DNA of 18,136 bases from NCBI GenBank assembly GCA_029934775.1, contig JAOZLO010000013.1, positions 1 to 18,136 on the forward strand, in the 5' to 3' direction. The translations under genes were made by a program, and so were the position numbers. Below are positions 2,752-18,136 of this stretch, one piece after another (position 1 is the stretch's first letter; every line of letters starts with the position of its first letter). The stretch is from Desulfocapsaceae bacterium (GTDB lineage: Bacteria; Desulfobacterota; Desulfobulbia; Desulfobulbales; Desulfocapsaceae). Under the pieces are notes generated by a model. That model made no database searches. It had not been told where the DNA came from and was given only the letters and a program-made list of their open reading frames with translations.

Positions 2752-3648
2752 ATGAATAAGATGGGGAAATACTCCTGCTCCATTCGTTCCATCACTGTTT
2801 CTTTTTTTTTACTGCAGATGACAGTTACCCCACTCAAAGTTTACGGTTCATCACAGCCTGAAGATACTGACACCCTGCCACTGTGGGAATTGCGCCTTGC
2901 GGCTACTGCGGCCGTTCTTCCCCACTATATCGGTTCAAATGAATATAAAAGCTATCTCTTCCCTCTCCCCTATTTGATCTATCGCGGTGAATTTTTTGAG
3001 TCTGACAGAGACAATATGCGGACAATTTTTTTTAAAAACAAATATTTCGAAACTGATATCTCTCTGTGGGGCAATCCACCTGTCCCGGGTAATAATTACA
3101 CACGTAACGGGATGGAAGAGCTTGATGCTCTAGCTGAAATCGGCCCCGCTTTAAGATATTATTTTTACCATAACAACAGGCGAGATGCCCTTTACCTGGA
3201 AGGAGCAATACGGACAGCCTTCTCAGTCGGGTGGGAAGGTGGCCCTGAGATAGGTTATCAAGGTTTACATGGCGGTTTTGATGTGATTTTAGAGAATAAT
3301 TCTCTGTTTAAAGAGCAGAAAATAGAATTCCATCTCAGCAGTGGAGTACAGTTCGCAAACTCAAGATTCAACAGCTACTTTTATGATGTGGAAATGGAAG
3401 ATGTCACTCCATATAGAAGTTATTATACAGCAGACGGAGGGTATTCGGGCTTTACCATATCAGGCTCTATTACCAGAGAACTCTATCCTGGCTTCACCTT
3501 CCTGTGCTACGGAAGATGGGATAATATCAGCGGTACAACCTACAATGACAGCCCTCTTGTCACCGCTGAAAATAATTATACAATTGGGACCATGCTCATT
3601 TTTACATTGGCAAAATCAAAAAAAATGATTTCCCGCTATTCAAAATAA
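2752..3648 (+). CDS. MipA/OmpV-family outer-membrane protein
   Basis: This is a predicted beta-barrel outer-membrane protein of 298 residues. A signal peptide spans about residues 1-32 (basic n-region, hydrophobic ITVSFFLLQMTV, likely cut near VYG-SS). Family-like features follow: an early HYIGSNEY segment, PLPYLIYRGE, a TRNGMEELDALAEIGPALRYY stretch and a C-terminal IGTMLIFTL strand. MipA in E. coli is a scaffold for murein enzymes and OmpV is a porin-like protein, so no specific role can be given. The ATG at 2752 has AAAGGA 7 nt upstream. An in-frame ATG at 2701 lies inside pgpA and would spoil the signal peptide. Probably co-transcribed with pgpA, and convergent with the cytochrome bd operon. 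Confidence 0.8.
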   Translation: MNKMGKYSCSIRSITVSFFLLQMTVTPLKVYGSSQPEDTDTLPLWELRLAATAAVLPHYIGSNEYKSYLFPLPYLIYRGEFFESDRDNMRTIFFKNKYFETDISLWGNPPVPGNNYTRNGMEELDALAEIGPALRYYFYHNNRRDALYLEGAIRTAFSVGWEGGPEIGYQGLHGGFDVILENNSLFKEQKIEFHLSSGVQFANSRFNSYFYDVEMEDVTPYRSYYTADGGYSGFTISGSITRELYPGFTFLCYGRWDNISGTTYNDSPLVTAENNYTIGTMLIFTLAKSKKMISRYSK

Positions 3649-3752
3649 CAGGAAGCACAGAGAAGAACTGTTTGAGAGTAGAGGGATTTCTGTGCTCTGG
3701 GAGACTATCCGAGAATACTTTTTCCCTCGAACAGCCTCCTGGTCAAATAAAC

Positions 3753-3845
3753 TCACATATTGTCAGTCCTTTCCAAAACAAACACAATCGCTTTGTAAGA
3801 AATACCGATTAAAGCGACCCAGCCAACAAGTAAAAATGTAACCAT
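3753..3845 (-). CDS. Small single-helix protein downstream of cydB (CydX-like candidate)
   Basis: This 30-residue frame starts MVTFLLVGWVALIG and ends LERTDNM. It has one hydrophobic helix (about residues 2-24) and a short charged C-terminal end, the build of CydX/CydS-type accessory subunits of cytochrome bd oxidases. Its ribosome site is strong: AAGGAGT, 5 nt before the ATG. It follows cydB on the same strand but is separated by a 137-bp inserted element. Without that element the gap from the cydB stop would be 16 nt. Sequence identity to E. coli CydX is not evident by eye, so the role is inferred from size, topology and position. It could be a chance frame, but the ribosome site and context argue against that. 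Confidence 0.6.
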   Translation of the reverse strand: MVTFLLVGWVALIGISYKAIVFVLERTDNM

Positions 3846-3850
3846 GACTT

Positions 3851-3857
3851 ACTCCTT
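3851..3857 (-). promoter_or_regulatory. Ribosome binding site of the small cyd-linked protein
   Basis: AAGGAGT on the minus strand, 5 nt before the ATG at 3845. It is the main evidence that this very short frame is translated. Confidence 0.6.
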
Positions 3858-3859
3858 AT

Positions 3860-4006
3860 AGTTAGTGCCCGTCCAGAAATGGCCTTTTTGCTCTAACCCT
3901 TCGTTGCAGGAAAAATTTTATCCTCCGATAAGCGAGGCACGAGACATCGAGATATCACCTATAGACCTGTGGTAAAATTTTCTAGTTTCTGGATGAACAC
4001 GAGTTA
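3860..4006. mobile_element. MITE-like element with target-site duplication
   Basis: A 137-bp non-coding block (3865-4001) lies between cydB and the small downstream gene. Its ends are imperfect inverted repeats: GTGCCCGTCCAGAAA (3865-3879) against the complement of TTTCTGGATGAACAC (3986-4000), matching at 12 of 15 positions. AGTTA flanks it on both sides (3860-3864 and 4002-4006), as expected of a 5-bp target duplication. An inner pair of AT-rich palindromes (around 3911-3920 and 3973-3980, both containing AAAATTTT) adds dyad symmetry. No reading frame for a transposase is present, so it would be mobilised in trans. The right-hand duplication includes the cydB stop codon. I do not recognise a named family. 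Confidence 0.65.
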
Positions 4007-5137
4007 ATATGCCTTTTCATCAGCAAGATCGTTCATGTCAATTTTTCTGGAATCCATCTGCCGCCAGACATAGATAACATAAGCCAGAACAAACGGTATC
4101 ATAAAGGCAACATAAGTCATCACCGTCAAAGTATAATGACTTGAGGAAGCATTGTAGATGGTTAGACTTGACTGCAAATCTACCTTGGATGGGTAAAAAG
4201 CAGTATTGTTAAATGCGGCGGTAAAGAATATTGCCAGCCCGACGAAAACTGTTCCAAGCCCGCCAAACCATATCCCTTTAGTCCCGGTTCCAAGACCTGT
4301 ACGAAGGACTCCCATAATTACAAGAAGAATACCGACCAGCAACATTCCCAGAACAACAGGCATCGCCAGGAGATTTCCCAGATATTTATAGGCAACCATA
4401 CTCACAACTCCATTCTCATCAAAACCGTAACCGTCAATCACCAGCAAAGCCACCAGTACATAGAGAAGGAAAGGCAAAGCACAGAAAAAACTGGTTAAAC
4501 AATTCTTTCTCAGCCGGACCTCAAGCCCAGGAACTTCAGTAAAATCTATATTATTAACCAGGTACATGGCTCCAAGTACCCGAGCATTGAATACCAGAAA
4601 AAGCCCGAGAGACAGATTAAAAAAGGAGAAGGCCGCTTCCATTCCTCTCATTGGGTTGGTCCAGGTAACCTGATTCATGTCGTTCAAAGTGAAGTTCGAA
4701 CCTGTAAAGAATGTTCCGACCGCCGCACCAATAAGTAGAATACCCACCGATCCGTTAATAAAAAGGAACGTCTCGTATACCTTCTGCCCGAGAAAGTTAT
4801 CTGGTTTTGTGCGATACTCATAACTTACCGCTTGAATAATAAAGCTGAAAAGAATAAGCATCCACACCCAGTACGCTCCACCAAAGCTTGTAGCGTAAAA
4901 TTTTGGGAAAGCAGCGAAGAGCGCCCCCCCGAAAAGAACCAGGGTAGTAAAGGTCAACTCCCATTTTCGTCCAAGTGAATTCACAACCAACGACTTCTCT
5001 GTTTCGTCTTTAGCCACCTGCCAGAGCAGAGTCTGCCCCCCCTGAACGAAAGTCAAAAAGAGAAAGAGGGCTCCAACTATTGAGCAGATGATCCACCAGA
5101 TCTGCTGCAACACCACGATATCTAAATTCCCAATCAT
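4004..5137 (-). CDS. cydB: Cytochrome bd ubiquinol oxidase subunit II
   Basis: CydB is the integral-membrane partner of CydA in the bd-type quinol oxidase. The 377-residue protein is almost wholly hydrophobic with about eight or nine membrane segments. It begins with the usual NLDIVVLQQIWW region and has the family motifs RKWELTFTTLVLFGGALFAAFP (about 57-78) and NNTAFYPS...SLTIYNASSS near the C-terminus. Its length is normal. The ATG lies 1 nt after the cydA stop, with GGAGGGCG inside the end of cydA serving as ribosome site, so translation is coupled. Its stop codon lies within the target duplication of the adjacent inserted element, and the insertion left the protein end intact. Confidence 0.97.
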   Translation of the reverse strand: MIGNLDIVVLQQIWWIICSIVGALFLFLTFVQGGQTLLWQVAKDETEKSLVVNSLGRKWELTFTTLVLFGGALFAAFPKFYATSFGGAYWVWMLILFSFIIQAVSYEYRTKPDNFLGQKVYETFLFINGSVGILLIGAAVGTFFTGSNFTLNDMNQVTWTNPMRGMEAAFSFFNLSLGLFLVFNARVLGAMYLVNNIDFTEVPGLEVRLRKNCLTSFFCALPFLLYVLVALLVIDGYGFDENGVVSMVAYKYLGNLLAMPVVLGMLLVGILLVIMGVLRTGLGTGTKGIWFGGLGTVFVGLAIFFTAAFNNTAFYPSKVDLQSSLTIYNASSSHYTLTVMTYVAFMIPFVLAYVIYVWRQMDSRKIDMNDLADEKAY

Positions 5138-5138
5138 T

Positions 5139-6671
5139 TTACGCGCCCTCCGGTCCTATTTTTATCTGCTTGAGCATAATTTTAATCTCAGCAATCAGCA
5201 GTACACCAAACAGTACAAAGAACATAAAGAAAGTTGTCTGTACATGCCCCACTCCAATATTAGTTGTGGCCATCTTCACTGGCATCAAGTTCTGAATAGC
5301 CCATGGTTGACGACCTACTTCTGCAACGACCCAACCAAGTTCAGACGCTGTTAAGGCGAGAAAGAAAGAACAGAACCCAAGCATTAACAGCCATATTTTA
5401 TCCTCCAATGTGTCTTTATAGGAGTAATAGAGATAGAGCATAAAAAGAAGGATAAAGAAAGATCCCAGATAAACCATAATATGGAAGGAATAATAAACAG
5501 TGGCAACCGGAGGCACTATTTCCTCAGGAGTATCAAGATAACCAAACCCCAGATAATCCTGATTTACTTTGAATCGCTCAAGAGCGGTAGCCTTTGCCTG
5601 TTCATCCCCGGCTTTTCCAGCTTCCCGTATCGCTGCAAAATCTGCGACGGCAGCCTTACCTTTCTCCATCTTCTCGGCAACTGACATTATGCCCTCAGCC
5701 TCATTGCCGTAAACGAGATCATTAATCCCGGGAACGAAACCATTCAATTCGCGTTTGGCCATAATTGACAGGCCCTTTGGAATGGAAACTTCAAAAGCAA
5801 ACGGTTCCTGACCGTCACCGACTCTCTTGCCGCTGGTCAAAACACCAAGAGCAACAATATCCGCACCTCTTTTTCCATCAAAAAGCCCTTCATAAGCGGC
5901 AAGTTTCATGGGTTGAGTATTTGCATTGTTGTACGCTGACTCATCACCTGTAAAGGCAGTAAAGAGGGAAGAGAGCAGGCCAAAAACTGACGCCACAATG
6001 ATTGACTTCTTGGCCATATTCACATGACGCCCTTTAAGCAGGTAGTACGAAGAAATGGTGATCACAAAAAAGGAACCCACAACAAAACTTGAGCTGGTTG
6101 TATGAGTAAATTTGGCAATTGCAATTGGAGATAAAAGTACTTCCCAGAAGTTTTCCATCTCAAAACGGGCACTCTCGGGATTAAATGCCATGCCAACCGG
6201 ATACTGCATCCAACCGTTAGCCACCAGAATCCAGAGAGCGGAAAGATTCGAACCTATAGCGACCATCCAGGTAGAAAAAAGATGAAATCCTTTAGAAGTG
6301 CGCTCCCAACCAAAAAACATTACAGCAAAAAATGTCGCCTCTAAAAAGAAGGCAAAAATACCTTCAATGGCCAAAGGAGCACCGAAAATATCACCTACCA
6401 TCCACGAATAATTGGACCAGTTTGTACCAAATTGGAACTCAAGAATAATTCCTGTGGCAACACCTATGGCAAAATTTATACCAAACAGTGTCATCCAGAA
6501 TTTCGTCAGTTTTTTCCACTCTTCATTACCTGTCCGCACATACATCGATTCAAAAAATGCACAAAGAAACGACAGCCCCAGAGTAATCGGGACAAAAATC
6601 CAGTGATACATTACTGTCAGGATAAACTGTGCCCTCGCCCAGTTCACCATGCTCAGATCTATTTCACCCAT
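5139..6671 (-). CDS. cydA: Cytochrome bd ubiquinol oxidase subunit I
   Basis: CydA carries the three haems and the quinol site of cytochrome bd, which reduces O2 to water without pumping protons. The 510-residue protein keeps the key residues: H23 (haem b595 ligand, E. coli H19), H190 and M399 (haem b558 ligands, E. coli H186 and M393), E103 and E111 in EGIFAFFLEATFF, and the GRQPW motif (453-457). The periplasmic Q-loop (about 250-385) contains IPKGLSIMAKRELNGF followed by a charged, alanine-rich stretch (330-367). GGAGGA lies 7 nt before the ATG. In a presumed anaerobe the enzyme would serve O2 scavenging or microaerobic respiration. Confidence 0.98.
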   Translation of the reverse strand: MGEIDLSMVNWARAQFILTVMYHWIFVPITLGLSFLCAFFESMYVRTGNEEWKKLTKFWMTLFGINFAIGVATGIILEFQFGTNWSNYSWMVGDIFGAPLAIEGIFAFFLEATFFAVMFFGWERTSKGFHLFSTWMVAIGSNLSALWILVANGWMQYPVGMAFNPESARFEMENFWEVLLSPIAIAKFTHTTSSSFVVGSFFVITISSYYLLKGRHVNMAKKSIIVASVFGLLSSLFTAFTGDESAYNNANTQPMKLAAYEGLFDGKRGADIVALGVLTSGKRVGDGQEPFAFEVSIPKGLSIMAKRELNGFVPGINDLVYGNEAEGIMSVAEKMEKGKAAVADFAAIREAGKAGDEQAKATALERFKVNQDYLGFGYLDTPEEIVPPVATVYYSFHIMVYLGSFFILLFMLYLYYSYKDTLEDKIWLLMLGFCSFFLALTASELGWVVAEVGRQPWAIQNLMPVKMATTNIGVGHVQTTFFMFFVLFGVLLIAEIKIMLKQIKIGPEGA

Positions 6672-16181: not shown

Positions 16182-17045
16182 TCAAATGTCATCCAGCGCC
16201 TTACGGATCAGCACTGCAATATCTTTCTTCGTAAGCGGCTTCAACGCAAACTCTCTTATACCTATAGATTTAGCTTTTTCCTCCGAGATAATGCTTGAGT
16301 AGCCAGTGCAGAGAATAATGGGAATATCAGGGCGAATCTGCAGCATTCTTCTGGCAAGATCAACACCAGTCATACCAGGCATAGTCTGATCGGTGATGAC
16401 AAGATCAAACAGATCAGGCTGGTTCTGAAAAGTTTCCAGAGCATCAATGCTGTTCTTTCTAACCGTAACATGATAGCCAAGCCTTTCGAGCATATCTTTG
16501 CCCATATCAGCAAGTATATCCTCATCATCAACAAAGAGGATCTTTTCTGTACCAATTGGGATCTGTTTAATAGCCTCCTTCTCAGTCATCAATTCCTCAC
16601 TGACGACAGGTAGAAAAATATGAAAAGCTGTACCTTTACCAGGTTCACTGGAGAGCGTTATGAACCCGCCATAGCTTTTTATAATGCCATGGACGATAGA
16701 AAGTCCCATTCCGGTACCTTTACCAACTCCTTTGGTCGTAAAATAAGGATCGAATATTTTATCTTTTACCTCTTGTGTCATTCCGGGGCCTGAATCAGAC
16801 ACTGACAGTTGAATAAAGGAACTGGTATCAACTTGCGGCTCATGTGTCATGTCTTCCCTGGAGAGAACTATTTCTTTTAATGAAATACCAAGTCTACCAC
16901 CTGTCTTTTCCATAGCATGGAATGCATTAGTACAGAGGTTCATCATTATCTGATGGATCTGAGTCTGATCCGCAAAGATAAAACCAGTTTCTGTGTCGAT
17001 ATTCTGAATAATTTCGATAGTTGTGGGAAGCGTCGAGCGAAGCAT
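16182..17045 (-). CDS. Hybrid sensor kinase, ATPase and receiver part (downstream of a frameshift)
   Basis: This 287-residue frame holds the back half of a hybrid histidine kinase. The HATPase_c region has the N-box HQIMMNLCTNAFHAM (31-45), G1 DSGPGM (84-89), the F-box FDPYFTTK (98-105) and G2 GKGTGMGLS (108-116). A receiver domain follows (about 168-285) with acidic pocket D173/D174, phospho-acceptor D219 in ITDQTMPGMTG, T247 and K269. The ATG at 17045 has no ribosome site, and an in-frame TGA lies at 17061-17063. The histidine-bearing half is in the adjoining frame. The two halves were almost certainly one gene, separated by a single-base shift. Alone it lacks the HisKA dimerisation domain. 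Confidence 0.85.
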   Translation of the reverse strand: MLRSTLPTTIEIIQNIDTETGFIFADQTQIHQIMMNLCTNAFHAMEKTGGRLGISLKEIVLSREDMTHEPQVDTSSFIQLSVSDSGPGMTQEVKDKIFDPYFTTKGVGKGTGMGLSIVHGIIKSYGGFITLSSEPGKGTAFHIFLPVVSEELMTEKEAIKQIPIGTEKILFVDDEDILADMGKDMLERLGYHVTVRKNSIDALETFQNQPDLFDLVITDQTMPGMTGVDLARRMLQIRPDIPIILCTGYSSIISEEKAKSIGIREFALKPLTKKDIAVLIRKALDDI

Positions 17046-18136
17046 AGTAATATGCTTTATTCACAATATCAGCAGGTTGCAGGAGAATATATTCTGTTTC
17101 ATCCTGACGACTAAAGGAGAGGATCTGTTTTACAAGATCAGTGGCTCTGGTACTTGCCTCCAAAACCTTATCCAAATCTTTGCTAGCCAATGACTCTTCG
17201 GGGATGCCATCTCTTGCCATTTCAGTATAACCGACAATGGCTGCTAAAATATTGTTGAAGTCATGTGCAATACCACCGGCCAAAGTGCCAATCGCTTCCA
17301 TTTTCTGAGATTGCTTGAGATGTTCTTCAAGTTTGATCTCATCTGTGATGTCATAAACAATTCCCTCAATATGCGTTATTATTCCCTGGGAATCTTTGCG
17401 TAGATAACTTTGATCTTTCACCCATTTGATAGCACCATTTTTACTCACAAGCCTATATGGTTCATGGAGAAAAGTTTGTGCCCCTCCCTCTTTCCTACCA
17501 GATATAACTTCTCCTTCAACTCTTTCTAAATCATCTTTGTGAATAAGGTTTTTATAGGATATTCTTTTTTCAATAAAGTCCCGAGGGGAATATTCTACCA
17601 AATCCTCGACATTATCGGACACAAACTCTACTGGCCAATCTTGAGCAGTTTGCCATAAAAATGCCACTGCTGGACTGCGATTTATTATTTTGTTAGCTTC
17701 ATACAACGCCGCATCTCTTTTTTGAAGACTCATTGTTAGATTGTTGAAGGTATCAATAATATTCTGGACTTCAATTTTTTGATTCTCCAAACCAGATTTG
17801 CGAAACTTTCCTTTCGCTAATAATGACATATCCTTTTGCAGATCGTCTAAGGATCGAGTTAAATATCGCCTGAGGAGGATATCAATGAAAAATAAAGACC
17901 CGATGATAGTTCCAAAAACCATCAAGAGGCCTACTATCATAATATTTTTTCTTTGCTGTTCTTTGGTTATGTTAGAGTAAAATATTTCAAGGTAACCAAC
18001 GAGTTTTTCTTTTTTATGGCGCAGTTCTTTGCGAATAAGGGTAGTTGGCTCTTCATGGGAAGATACTTCTTTTCTAAAAATAACTTTCTTGTTTTGATCA
18101 AGTAGAATCAACCCTCTGACTTCTGGATATTCAAGA
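16927..18136 (-). CDS. Hybrid sensor kinase, sensor/HAMP/PAS/HisKA part (partial, frameshifted)
   Basis: The frame is open to the window edge, so the true start lies outside. Counting from the TTG at 18111, one membrane helix spans about 56-80, followed by a HAMP-like linker (80-130), a PAS domain (about 145-255, with VKDQSYLRKDSQGI and the closing EGIVYDITDE) and a HisKA domain with QKMEAIGTLAGGIAHDFNNI (269-288). H283 is the phospho-accepting histidine. After about residue 355 (base 17046) the sequence stops resembling a kinase, while the adjacent frame resumes with MLRSTLPTTIEI, the usual link to the ATPase domain. The last 39 residues to the stop at 16927 are therefore out-of-frame. The signal sensed is unknown. 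Confidence 0.85.
   Translation of the reverse strand, partial: LEYPEVRGLILLDQNKKVIFRKEVSSHEEPTTLIRKELRHKKEKLVGYLEIFYSNITKEQQRKNIMIVGLLMVFGTIIGSLFFIDILLRRYLTRSLDDLQKDMSLLAKGKFRKSGLENQKIEVQNIIDTFNNLTMSLQKRDAALYEANKIINRSPAVAFLWQTAQDWPVEFVSDNVEDLVEYSPRDFIEKRISYKNLIHKDDLERVEGEVISGRKEGGAQTFLHEPYRLVSKNGAIKWVKDQSYLRKDSQGIITHIEGIVYDITDEIKLEEHLKQSQKMEAIGTLAGGIAHDFNNILAAIVGYTEMARDGIPEESLASKDLDKVLEASTRATDLVKQILSFSRQDETEYILLQPADIVNKAYYYASLDASHNYRNYSEYRHRNWFYLCGSDSDPSDNDEPLY
17041..17056. repeat. Perfect 6-bp palindrome at the kinase frameshift
   Basis: AGCATA-GTAA-TATGCT spans the exact place where the kinase coding frame shifts by one base. The shift must lie between the TGA of the second frame (17061-17063) and the start of kinase-like sequence at 17045. 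Short palindromes are known sites of templated indels. Confidence 0.6.

Follow-up and report, generated by a model that had tools for sequence, protein, structure and literature searches.

The cytochrome bd locus and its small downstream gene

The window, that is the whole stretch of 18,136 nucleotides of Desulfocapsaceae DNA analysed here, carries on its minus strand the two main genes of a cytochrome bd oxidase, followed by a reading frame of only 30 codons. The genes and signals around the junction are as follows, in window coordinates.

5139-6671, minus strand: cydA, cytochrome bd oxidase subunit I, 510 aa (Pfam PF01654, 3.6e-159)
4004-5137, minus strand: cydB, cytochrome bd oxidase subunit II, 377 aa, intact (PF02322, 1.9e-68; TIGR00203 above cut-off)
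3852-3857, minus strand: AAGGAG, resembling a ribosome-binding site, of the 30-aa gene; intact, read from the sequence
3753-3845, minus strand: 30-aa gene with a hydrophobic product, lying 3' of cydB in most measured loci
3630-3654, minus strand: terminator-like hairpin downstream of the 30-aa gene (consensus match only, with 0.9 expected by chance in the scanned region)

Read along the minus strand, the TAA of cydB is followed by a spacer, then by AAGGAG and the ATG of the 30-aa gene, with a gap of 158 nt between the two genes. The Pfam matches bear out the identification of cydB and of a cytochrome bd operon made from the bare sequence in an earlier note on this DNA. The 30-aa protein has no match in Pfam, NCBIfam or PDB sequences; it is conserved in the family, its residues W9, I13, Y17 and L24 being invariant across 20 sequences. 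It may represent a small subunit, so far without a name, of this branch of cytochrome bd, with a role like that of CydX or CydS. Elsewhere in the window, the minus-strand ORFs 16182-17045 and 16927-18111 overlap at 16927-17045 and look like a single hybrid histidine kinase split by a frameshift, either real or a sequencing error.

Structure of the element between cydB and the 30-aa gene

The spacer between the two genes holds a miniature inverted-repeat element (MITE) with the following parts.

3865-4000, plus strand: MITE, 136 bp, non-autonomous and of ISNCY type, between cydB and the 30-aa gene (12 complete copies with the same ends in its own genome; ISNCY elements in the related genomes G006 and G001)
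3865-3879, plus strand: left terminal inverted repeat, GTGCCCGTCCAGAAA
3986-4000, minus strand: right terminal inverted repeat, GTGTTCATCCAGAAA as read on that strand
3859-3864: distal copy of the target-site duplication, TAGTTA (TAACTA on the minus strand)
4001-4006: cydB-proximal copy, GAGTTA, which holds the cydB stop codon TAA (4004-4006, minus strand)
3926-3948, plus strand: nested 23-bp micro-repeat CGATAAGCGAGGCACGAGACATC (register 3927-3949 possible), missing from the sister MITE copies C501:4373 and C52:871
3980-3981: site at which the right arm lacks 28 bp by comparison with the 141-bp copies, a deletion whose placement is ambiguous by a few bases

The arms are complementary at 12 of 15 positions (80%), exactly as the earlier note had it. 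Its other measurements needed some adjustment: the element is 136 bp long instead of 137, and the duplication, given there as 5-bp AGTTA, extends to 6 bp with one mismatch (5/6). This duplication does contain the cydB stop codon, and removal of the MITE together with one duplication copy leaves the 16-nt gap that had been predicted, as counted from the sequence. No ORF of 60 aa or more and no transposase gene lie inside the element. Relative to the 141-bp copies described below, it has 23 bases more (3926-3948) and 28 bases fewer; both the nested insert and the right-arm deletion near 3980/3981 had escaped the earlier reading.

Dispersal of the MITE and duplication of its target

Had the block been inserted, the earlier note argued, copies with the same ends and duplications should be scattered through this genome and its relatives. 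Such copies were found in both: at E 0.01 or better, 32 of the 58 genomes searched (own included, and many of them drafts) have a match to the MITE. The genome of origin, itself a draft of 3.5 Mb in 592 contigs and 88% complete, gave 25 BLAST matches and 32 sites with the MITE end pattern, as against 6 for a reversed control. At least 12 copies in this genome are complete with both ends, six of them 141 bp long, four 163-165 bp, one 186 bp and the window copy 136 bp. In G006, a genome of the same genus assembled into a single contig, 98 end sites were counted at up to one mismatch and none with the control.

The target duplication was assessed in 30 MITE copies, which were taken from loci of this and related genomes with the ends as sole criterion. 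Their 6-bp flanks agree on average at 4.63 of six positions, compared with 3.13 when flanks are shuffled between copies and with 3.67 in the highest of 2000 shuffles. Agreement reaches five or six positions in 21 of the 30 copies (six in 8 of them) and is nil in one. A further 18 copies were fetched from G006: five or six positions agree in 12 of them (all six in 9) and none in one.

Positions of the copies were counted against mechanical ORFs, not annotated genes. In the own genome none of the 12 copies lies within an ORF of at least 90 aa, and for five of them a neighbouring stop codon is no more than 4 nt from the start of the copy. The stop-codon pattern is weaker in G006, where one of 18 copies begins that close to a stop codon and one of 18 lies inside an ORF. 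Dispersed elements at six further loci of the own genome (L007, L011, L013, L014, L017 and L019) share parts of the inner core of the MITE near ATCCTCGGAATATCAACTATATGCCTGTGGTAAAATTTT and have different ends, such as GGGTACCTTGCAAAATT and GAGCCCGTTGATTTAAT. It looks as though core and ends could be exchanged, in the manner of a mosaic.

A candidate parent and its target rule

A search for DDE_Tnp_1 domains in seven genomes of the genus returned 30 loci, which were checked for MITE ends. Two ISNCY elements of about 1.69 kb with MITE-like ends emerged, one in G006 and one in G001, both of the same genus. The first (L352:1282-2972) is bounded by GTGCCTGTCCATAAA and GTGCCTGTCCATGAG and by the duplication TACCTA/TACCTA, and its transposase is split over three frames. 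The second (L339:1282-2969) encodes an intact transposase of 485 aa, which matches the ISNCY model NF033593 at 432 bits (cut-off 325), and its flanks agree at only 3 of six positions.

Relatives of the L339 protein were found by protein search in 10 of the 58 genomes. In one of these, G011, nine ISNCY copies are identical over 1578 bp, share 43% protein identity with L339, and end in GTGTCCGTCCGGAAA and GTTTCTGTCCGGAAA; all nine are flanked by perfect 6-bp TANNTA duplications. Measured against the 15-position end pattern, the two ends have 0 and 2 mismatches in L352, 1 and 4 (right end) in L339, and 1 and 2 in the G011 copies. The window MITE has in common with ISNCY (NF033593) ends of the kind GTGYCYRTCC... 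and a 6-bp duplication, and the nine G011 copies and L352 share the target TANNTA. Unlike these elements, the MITE is without a transposase gene, and its interior beyond the ends is dissimilar by eye. The draft genome of origin, with 592 contigs at 88% completeness, yielded two short fragment matches to the ISNCY transposase and no intact gene for it. We take the candidate parents to belong perhaps to the ISDol1 subfamily. A passage of PMC8147514 places ISDol1 within ISNCY.

Other routes to a parent were set aside. A search of retrieved loci for transposons of 0.4-6 kb by paired MITE ends gave one pair, read as two separate MITEs; a 766-bp end pair in G006 consists of two MITE pieces around an FKBP-like gene, as judged by translation. 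Twenty G006 end sites with no close partner at up to one mismatch were fetched, and the six adjoining ORFs that were scanned held no transposase: they are SurA-like, AMP-binding, Memo, SpoU methylase, cupin and one unmatched. Plasmid records yielded only two weak matches (37 bits, E = 5).

ERIC, NEMIS, Correia and RUP are types of bacterial MITE, and ERIC and Correia target TA. The window MITE is like all four in its length class of about 100-150 bp, its imperfect palindrome over the whole length and its intergenic dispersal; it differs from them in sequence and target, and its parent family would be ISNCY. A part of PMC3116915 describes ERIC and NEMIS as likely MITEs. Our literature search found no paper on Desulfobulbaceae with miniature inverted-repeat elements.

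The junction in relatives and the possible effect of the insertion

Matches to cydB occur in 49 of the 58 genomes. The junction was read at 30 returned cydB loci (own included); the gap to the 30-aa gene could be measured in 27 and was unreadable in three. It spans 10-42 nt in 21 of the 27 measured loci, with G016 counted among them under either of two starts, the automatic choice being doubtful there. The six longer gaps measure 158 nt (G000), 314 nt (G001), 148 nt (G006), 210 nt (G010), 265 nt (G026) and 89 nt (G030). In G005, of the same genus, the junction is short, at 26 nt, in line with the empty site that the earlier note had expected in relatives. That note had also named a spacer conserved at this locus as the mark of a local regulatory element; G001 and G006 carry different spacers. 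The one in G001 includes two dispersed repeats of other kinds and has 47 matches within its own genome, the query itself among them, most of which fall on query positions 1-128 or 123-200. In the one in G006, seven further matches were obtained for a segment of about 50 bp. The junction has therefore been lengthened several times, by different material. Junctions lengthened downstream of cydB were noted at L101 (G001), L102 (G006), L119 (G010), L121 (G026) and L122 (G030), and this place may be a hot spot or may simply tolerate such material.

With a probability of roughly 0.93, we read the block as an ISNCY-type MITE that was moved in trans, duplicated its target so as to rebuild the cydB stop codon, and is most likely a near-neutral passenger. 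The dispersed copies, the duplications, the short junction in G005, the unconserved spacer and the ISNCY ends all favour the insertion already proposed in the earlier note. An ISNCY-family DDE transposase, for which the GTGYCYRTCCAKAAA ends as borne by the MITE are candidate substrates, would have acted on a TANNTA target, here presumably TAACTA. If the distal duplication copy represents the original target, cydB ended TAT TAA CTA. The first three bases of TAACTA would then be the stop codon, so that gap repair would have copied it and the duplication rebuilds it. In this way cydB and the next ribosome site would have been left intact, and both are intact today, as had been claimed (377 aa; AAGGAG at 3852-3857). 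Before or after the insertion, the window copy or its source would have gained the central 23-bp micro-repeat and lost 28 bp of one arm. Since AAGGAG is preserved, the operon mRNA is probably read through the MITE and the 30-aa gene still translated from its own ribosome site, the MITE at most weakening translational coupling. A scan of 3600-4400 for consensus matches listed no minus-strand promoter-like site between the MITE and the 30-aa gene.

We consider it quite unlikely that the MITE has been taken over as a cis-acting RNA switch whose hairpin sets the ratio of the small subunit to CydAB through mRNA processing or uncoupled translation. That the gap, presumably 16 nt at first, now measures 158 nt where 21 of 27 loci keep within 10-42 nt could be taken in its favour, as could the long and different spacers of G001 and G006 and the long ones of G010, G026 and G030; moreover, some bacterial MITEs act in mRNAs. 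Against it, on the mRNA strand the block folds in an ordinary way (z -1.39, with 21 of 200 shuffles folding at least as well; z -1.20 on the other strand), so that folding lends a regulatory RNA no support. The spacer sequence at the locus is not conserved either, many unrelated genes have a copy of this MITE beside them, and Rfam returned no match in the whole window at gathering scores. We found no evidence of a regulatory role, or of the lowered or uncoupled expression or mRNA processing considered in the earlier note, which would be no more than possible effects. The weak fold, the unconserved locus and the retained ribosome site are the reasons for which the MITE is held to be nearly neutral. 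That the block evolved in place as a local regulatory element, with no insertion, can practically be discarded: it forms an imperfect palindrome in the mRNA, and against this stand the dispersed copies in own and related genomes, the 6-bp duplication, the empty junction in a same-genus relative and the ISNCY elements with similar ends.

A micro-repeat nested in the MITE

The 23 extra bases of the window copy belong to a family of 17-27 bp with the form GGTAAGCG-N1-11-AGACTCCG, in which middles of 1, 2, 7, 8, 9 or 11 nt occur and the octamers vary somewhat; in the window they read GATAAGCG and AGACATCG. The exact pattern with middles of 1-7 nt has 21 matches in the own genome and is present in 24 of the 58 genomes, as against one match of the reversed pattern in all 58. 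Exact copies number 46 in G001 and 42 in G016.

Public genome contigs contain at least 113 stretches with a related degenerate 24-mer. Among the 80 stretches listed, 70 carry names such as Desulfobulbaceae, Desulforhopalus, Desulfocapsa and Desulfurivibrionaceae, nine are labelled Deltaproteobacteria and one Pseudomonadota, and 25 come from a single MAG. Desulfosediminicola flagellatus and Desulfurivibrionaceae were checked to be Desulfobulbales, to which the other listed host names presumably belong. We found no paper matching four letter strings of the micro-repeat.

Among the sequences that host it are the MITE family described here, in which it occupies several positions, a CGTCATTCCGGC repeat and further palindromic repeats. 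Rfam, run on nine loci, gave group II intron matches around or adjoining the micro-repeat in three (L135, L167 and L187). At the 80 listed public loci, four of 138 micro-repeats fall in stop-free segments of at least 150 codons, which cover 73% of that DNA, and two of these four belong to the L135 intron stretch. Tandem runs with a period of 23 or 24 bp were seen at the public loci L140 (23 bp), L190 and L223, which suggests insertion beside an existing copy, or slippage. At L291-L307 in G006, a second dispersed repeat family (gttcacccaaggtcagtccaggcgacgcc...) has a 17-bp micro-repeat at one fixed place in many loci.

Insertion or inheritance of the micro-repeat

In G006 the MITE copies of 142-144 bp and those of 159-161 bp differ by a 17-bp segment: the empty site reads TTCA^AGGAG and the filled one TTCA[GGTAAGCGWAGACTCCG]AGGAG, with another interior in one of 18 copies (166 bp). 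On a broader scale, 293 distinct micro-repeat contexts were grouped into 106 site clusters, and an empty site was defined as a counterpart at no more than 3 mismatches in 28 positions, sought in the analysed loci, which related searches had selected. Such counterparts were recovered for 31 of the 106 clusters, 16 of them at 0-1 mismatches. Four of the 31 are tandem cases in which the flank is itself a micro-repeat, leaving 27 of 106, with 12 at 0-1 mismatches. Random 23-bp skips gave an empty site in 0 of 200 trials. In a harder control, skips of equal length were placed next to the insert within its own hosts, with as many as four offsets per cluster, and an empty site turned up in 4 of 106 clusters. 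The loci examined yielded no empty site for 75 of the 106 clusters.

The matched sites show no target duplication. Of 242 junctions, 198 have A immediately before the micro-repeat, 179 have C one base further out, and 187 have A just after it. These comparisons suggest that the micro-repeat was inserted and not just inherited, and that such precise insertion seems to have happened at many places in these bacteria. Tentatively, at somewhat below even odds, we propose that Desulfobulbales host micro-elements of 17-27 bp, with GGTAAGCG and AGACTCCG around a middle of 1-11 nt, that insert precisely and without target duplication, mostly after CA, into MITEs, group II introns and repeats of other kinds. 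The mechanism would involve a single strand or a template switch, and the copy nested in the window's MITE would be one such insertion.

The converse history, in which the 23-bp segment is ancestral and was precisely deleted from other copies, or was copied from another MITE by gene conversion, is in our view unlikely. Both states do occur in both MITE subfamilies, and the letters of the window insert are identical to those of the C534 copies. A tree of the 12 own MITE copies, built with the insert columns left out and well supported at two of nine inner branches, mixes filled and empty copies and needs at least four state changes, without showing which are gains; two are forced by well-supported branches, and 287 of 500 shuffles are as low. 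Yet 27 of the 106 clusters, which lie in different hosts, have a footprint-free empty counterpart (31 with the tandem cases), against 4 of 106 and 0 of 200 in the controls, and loss alone cannot explain the presence of the micro-repeat in group II introns. The tree places the window copy together with two empty ones (support 98/95); the bases flanking its insert are those of its empty sisters, and a conversion tract from another MITE would therefore be very short.

Comparison with known small repeats

Two further readings of the micro-repeat were not retained. An integron attC site was dropped, the copies in the own genome standing singly between unrelated ORFs. A hairpin is not claimed either: positions 2 and -3 co-vary across the 242 junctions (G-C 212, A-T 20, A-C 7, G-T 3, with common descent left in the counts), positions 3 and -4 show no co-variation (P = 1), and folding is poor for many variants.

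SDR5 of Nostoc and other small dispersed repeats were reportedly treated by Elhai in 2008, and we know of nobody who has shown how those of cyanobacteria move. By its description, and in a different bacterial order, the micro-repeat appears to resemble these elements: it is dispersed, very short, present in many copies per genome and precisely inserted into other sequences without target duplication. It follows A in most junctions and not an HIP1 site as SDR5 does, and it has, unlike SDR5, a variable middle of 1-11 nt between two fixed octamers. The comparison draws on a part of PMC4390886 that deals with SDR5 and on a part of PMC3116915.

The REP and REPIN sequences associated with the Y1 transposase RAYT, as treated in a section of PMC3116915, are likewise short and dispersed; a point of difference is the poor folding of many variants of the micro-repeat. 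A single-strand mechanism would be compatible with insertion that duplicates no target. Matches to Y1 transposases, counted by hand, occur in 23 of the 24 genomes with the micro-repeat and in 27 of the 34 without it, so that their presence does not separate the two groups.

Significance

The MITE comes with a candidate ISNCY parent and a TANNTA target rule, and the duplication that rebuilds a stop codon would offer a simple reason why such elements are tolerated at stop codons without harm. Of the two elements, the micro-repeat matters more: it would provide, in a second and unrelated bacterial order, a small dispersed repeat with many filled and empty sites. Together with a carrier genome in a single contig, these sites are material for testing how DNA of 17-27 bp may spread.
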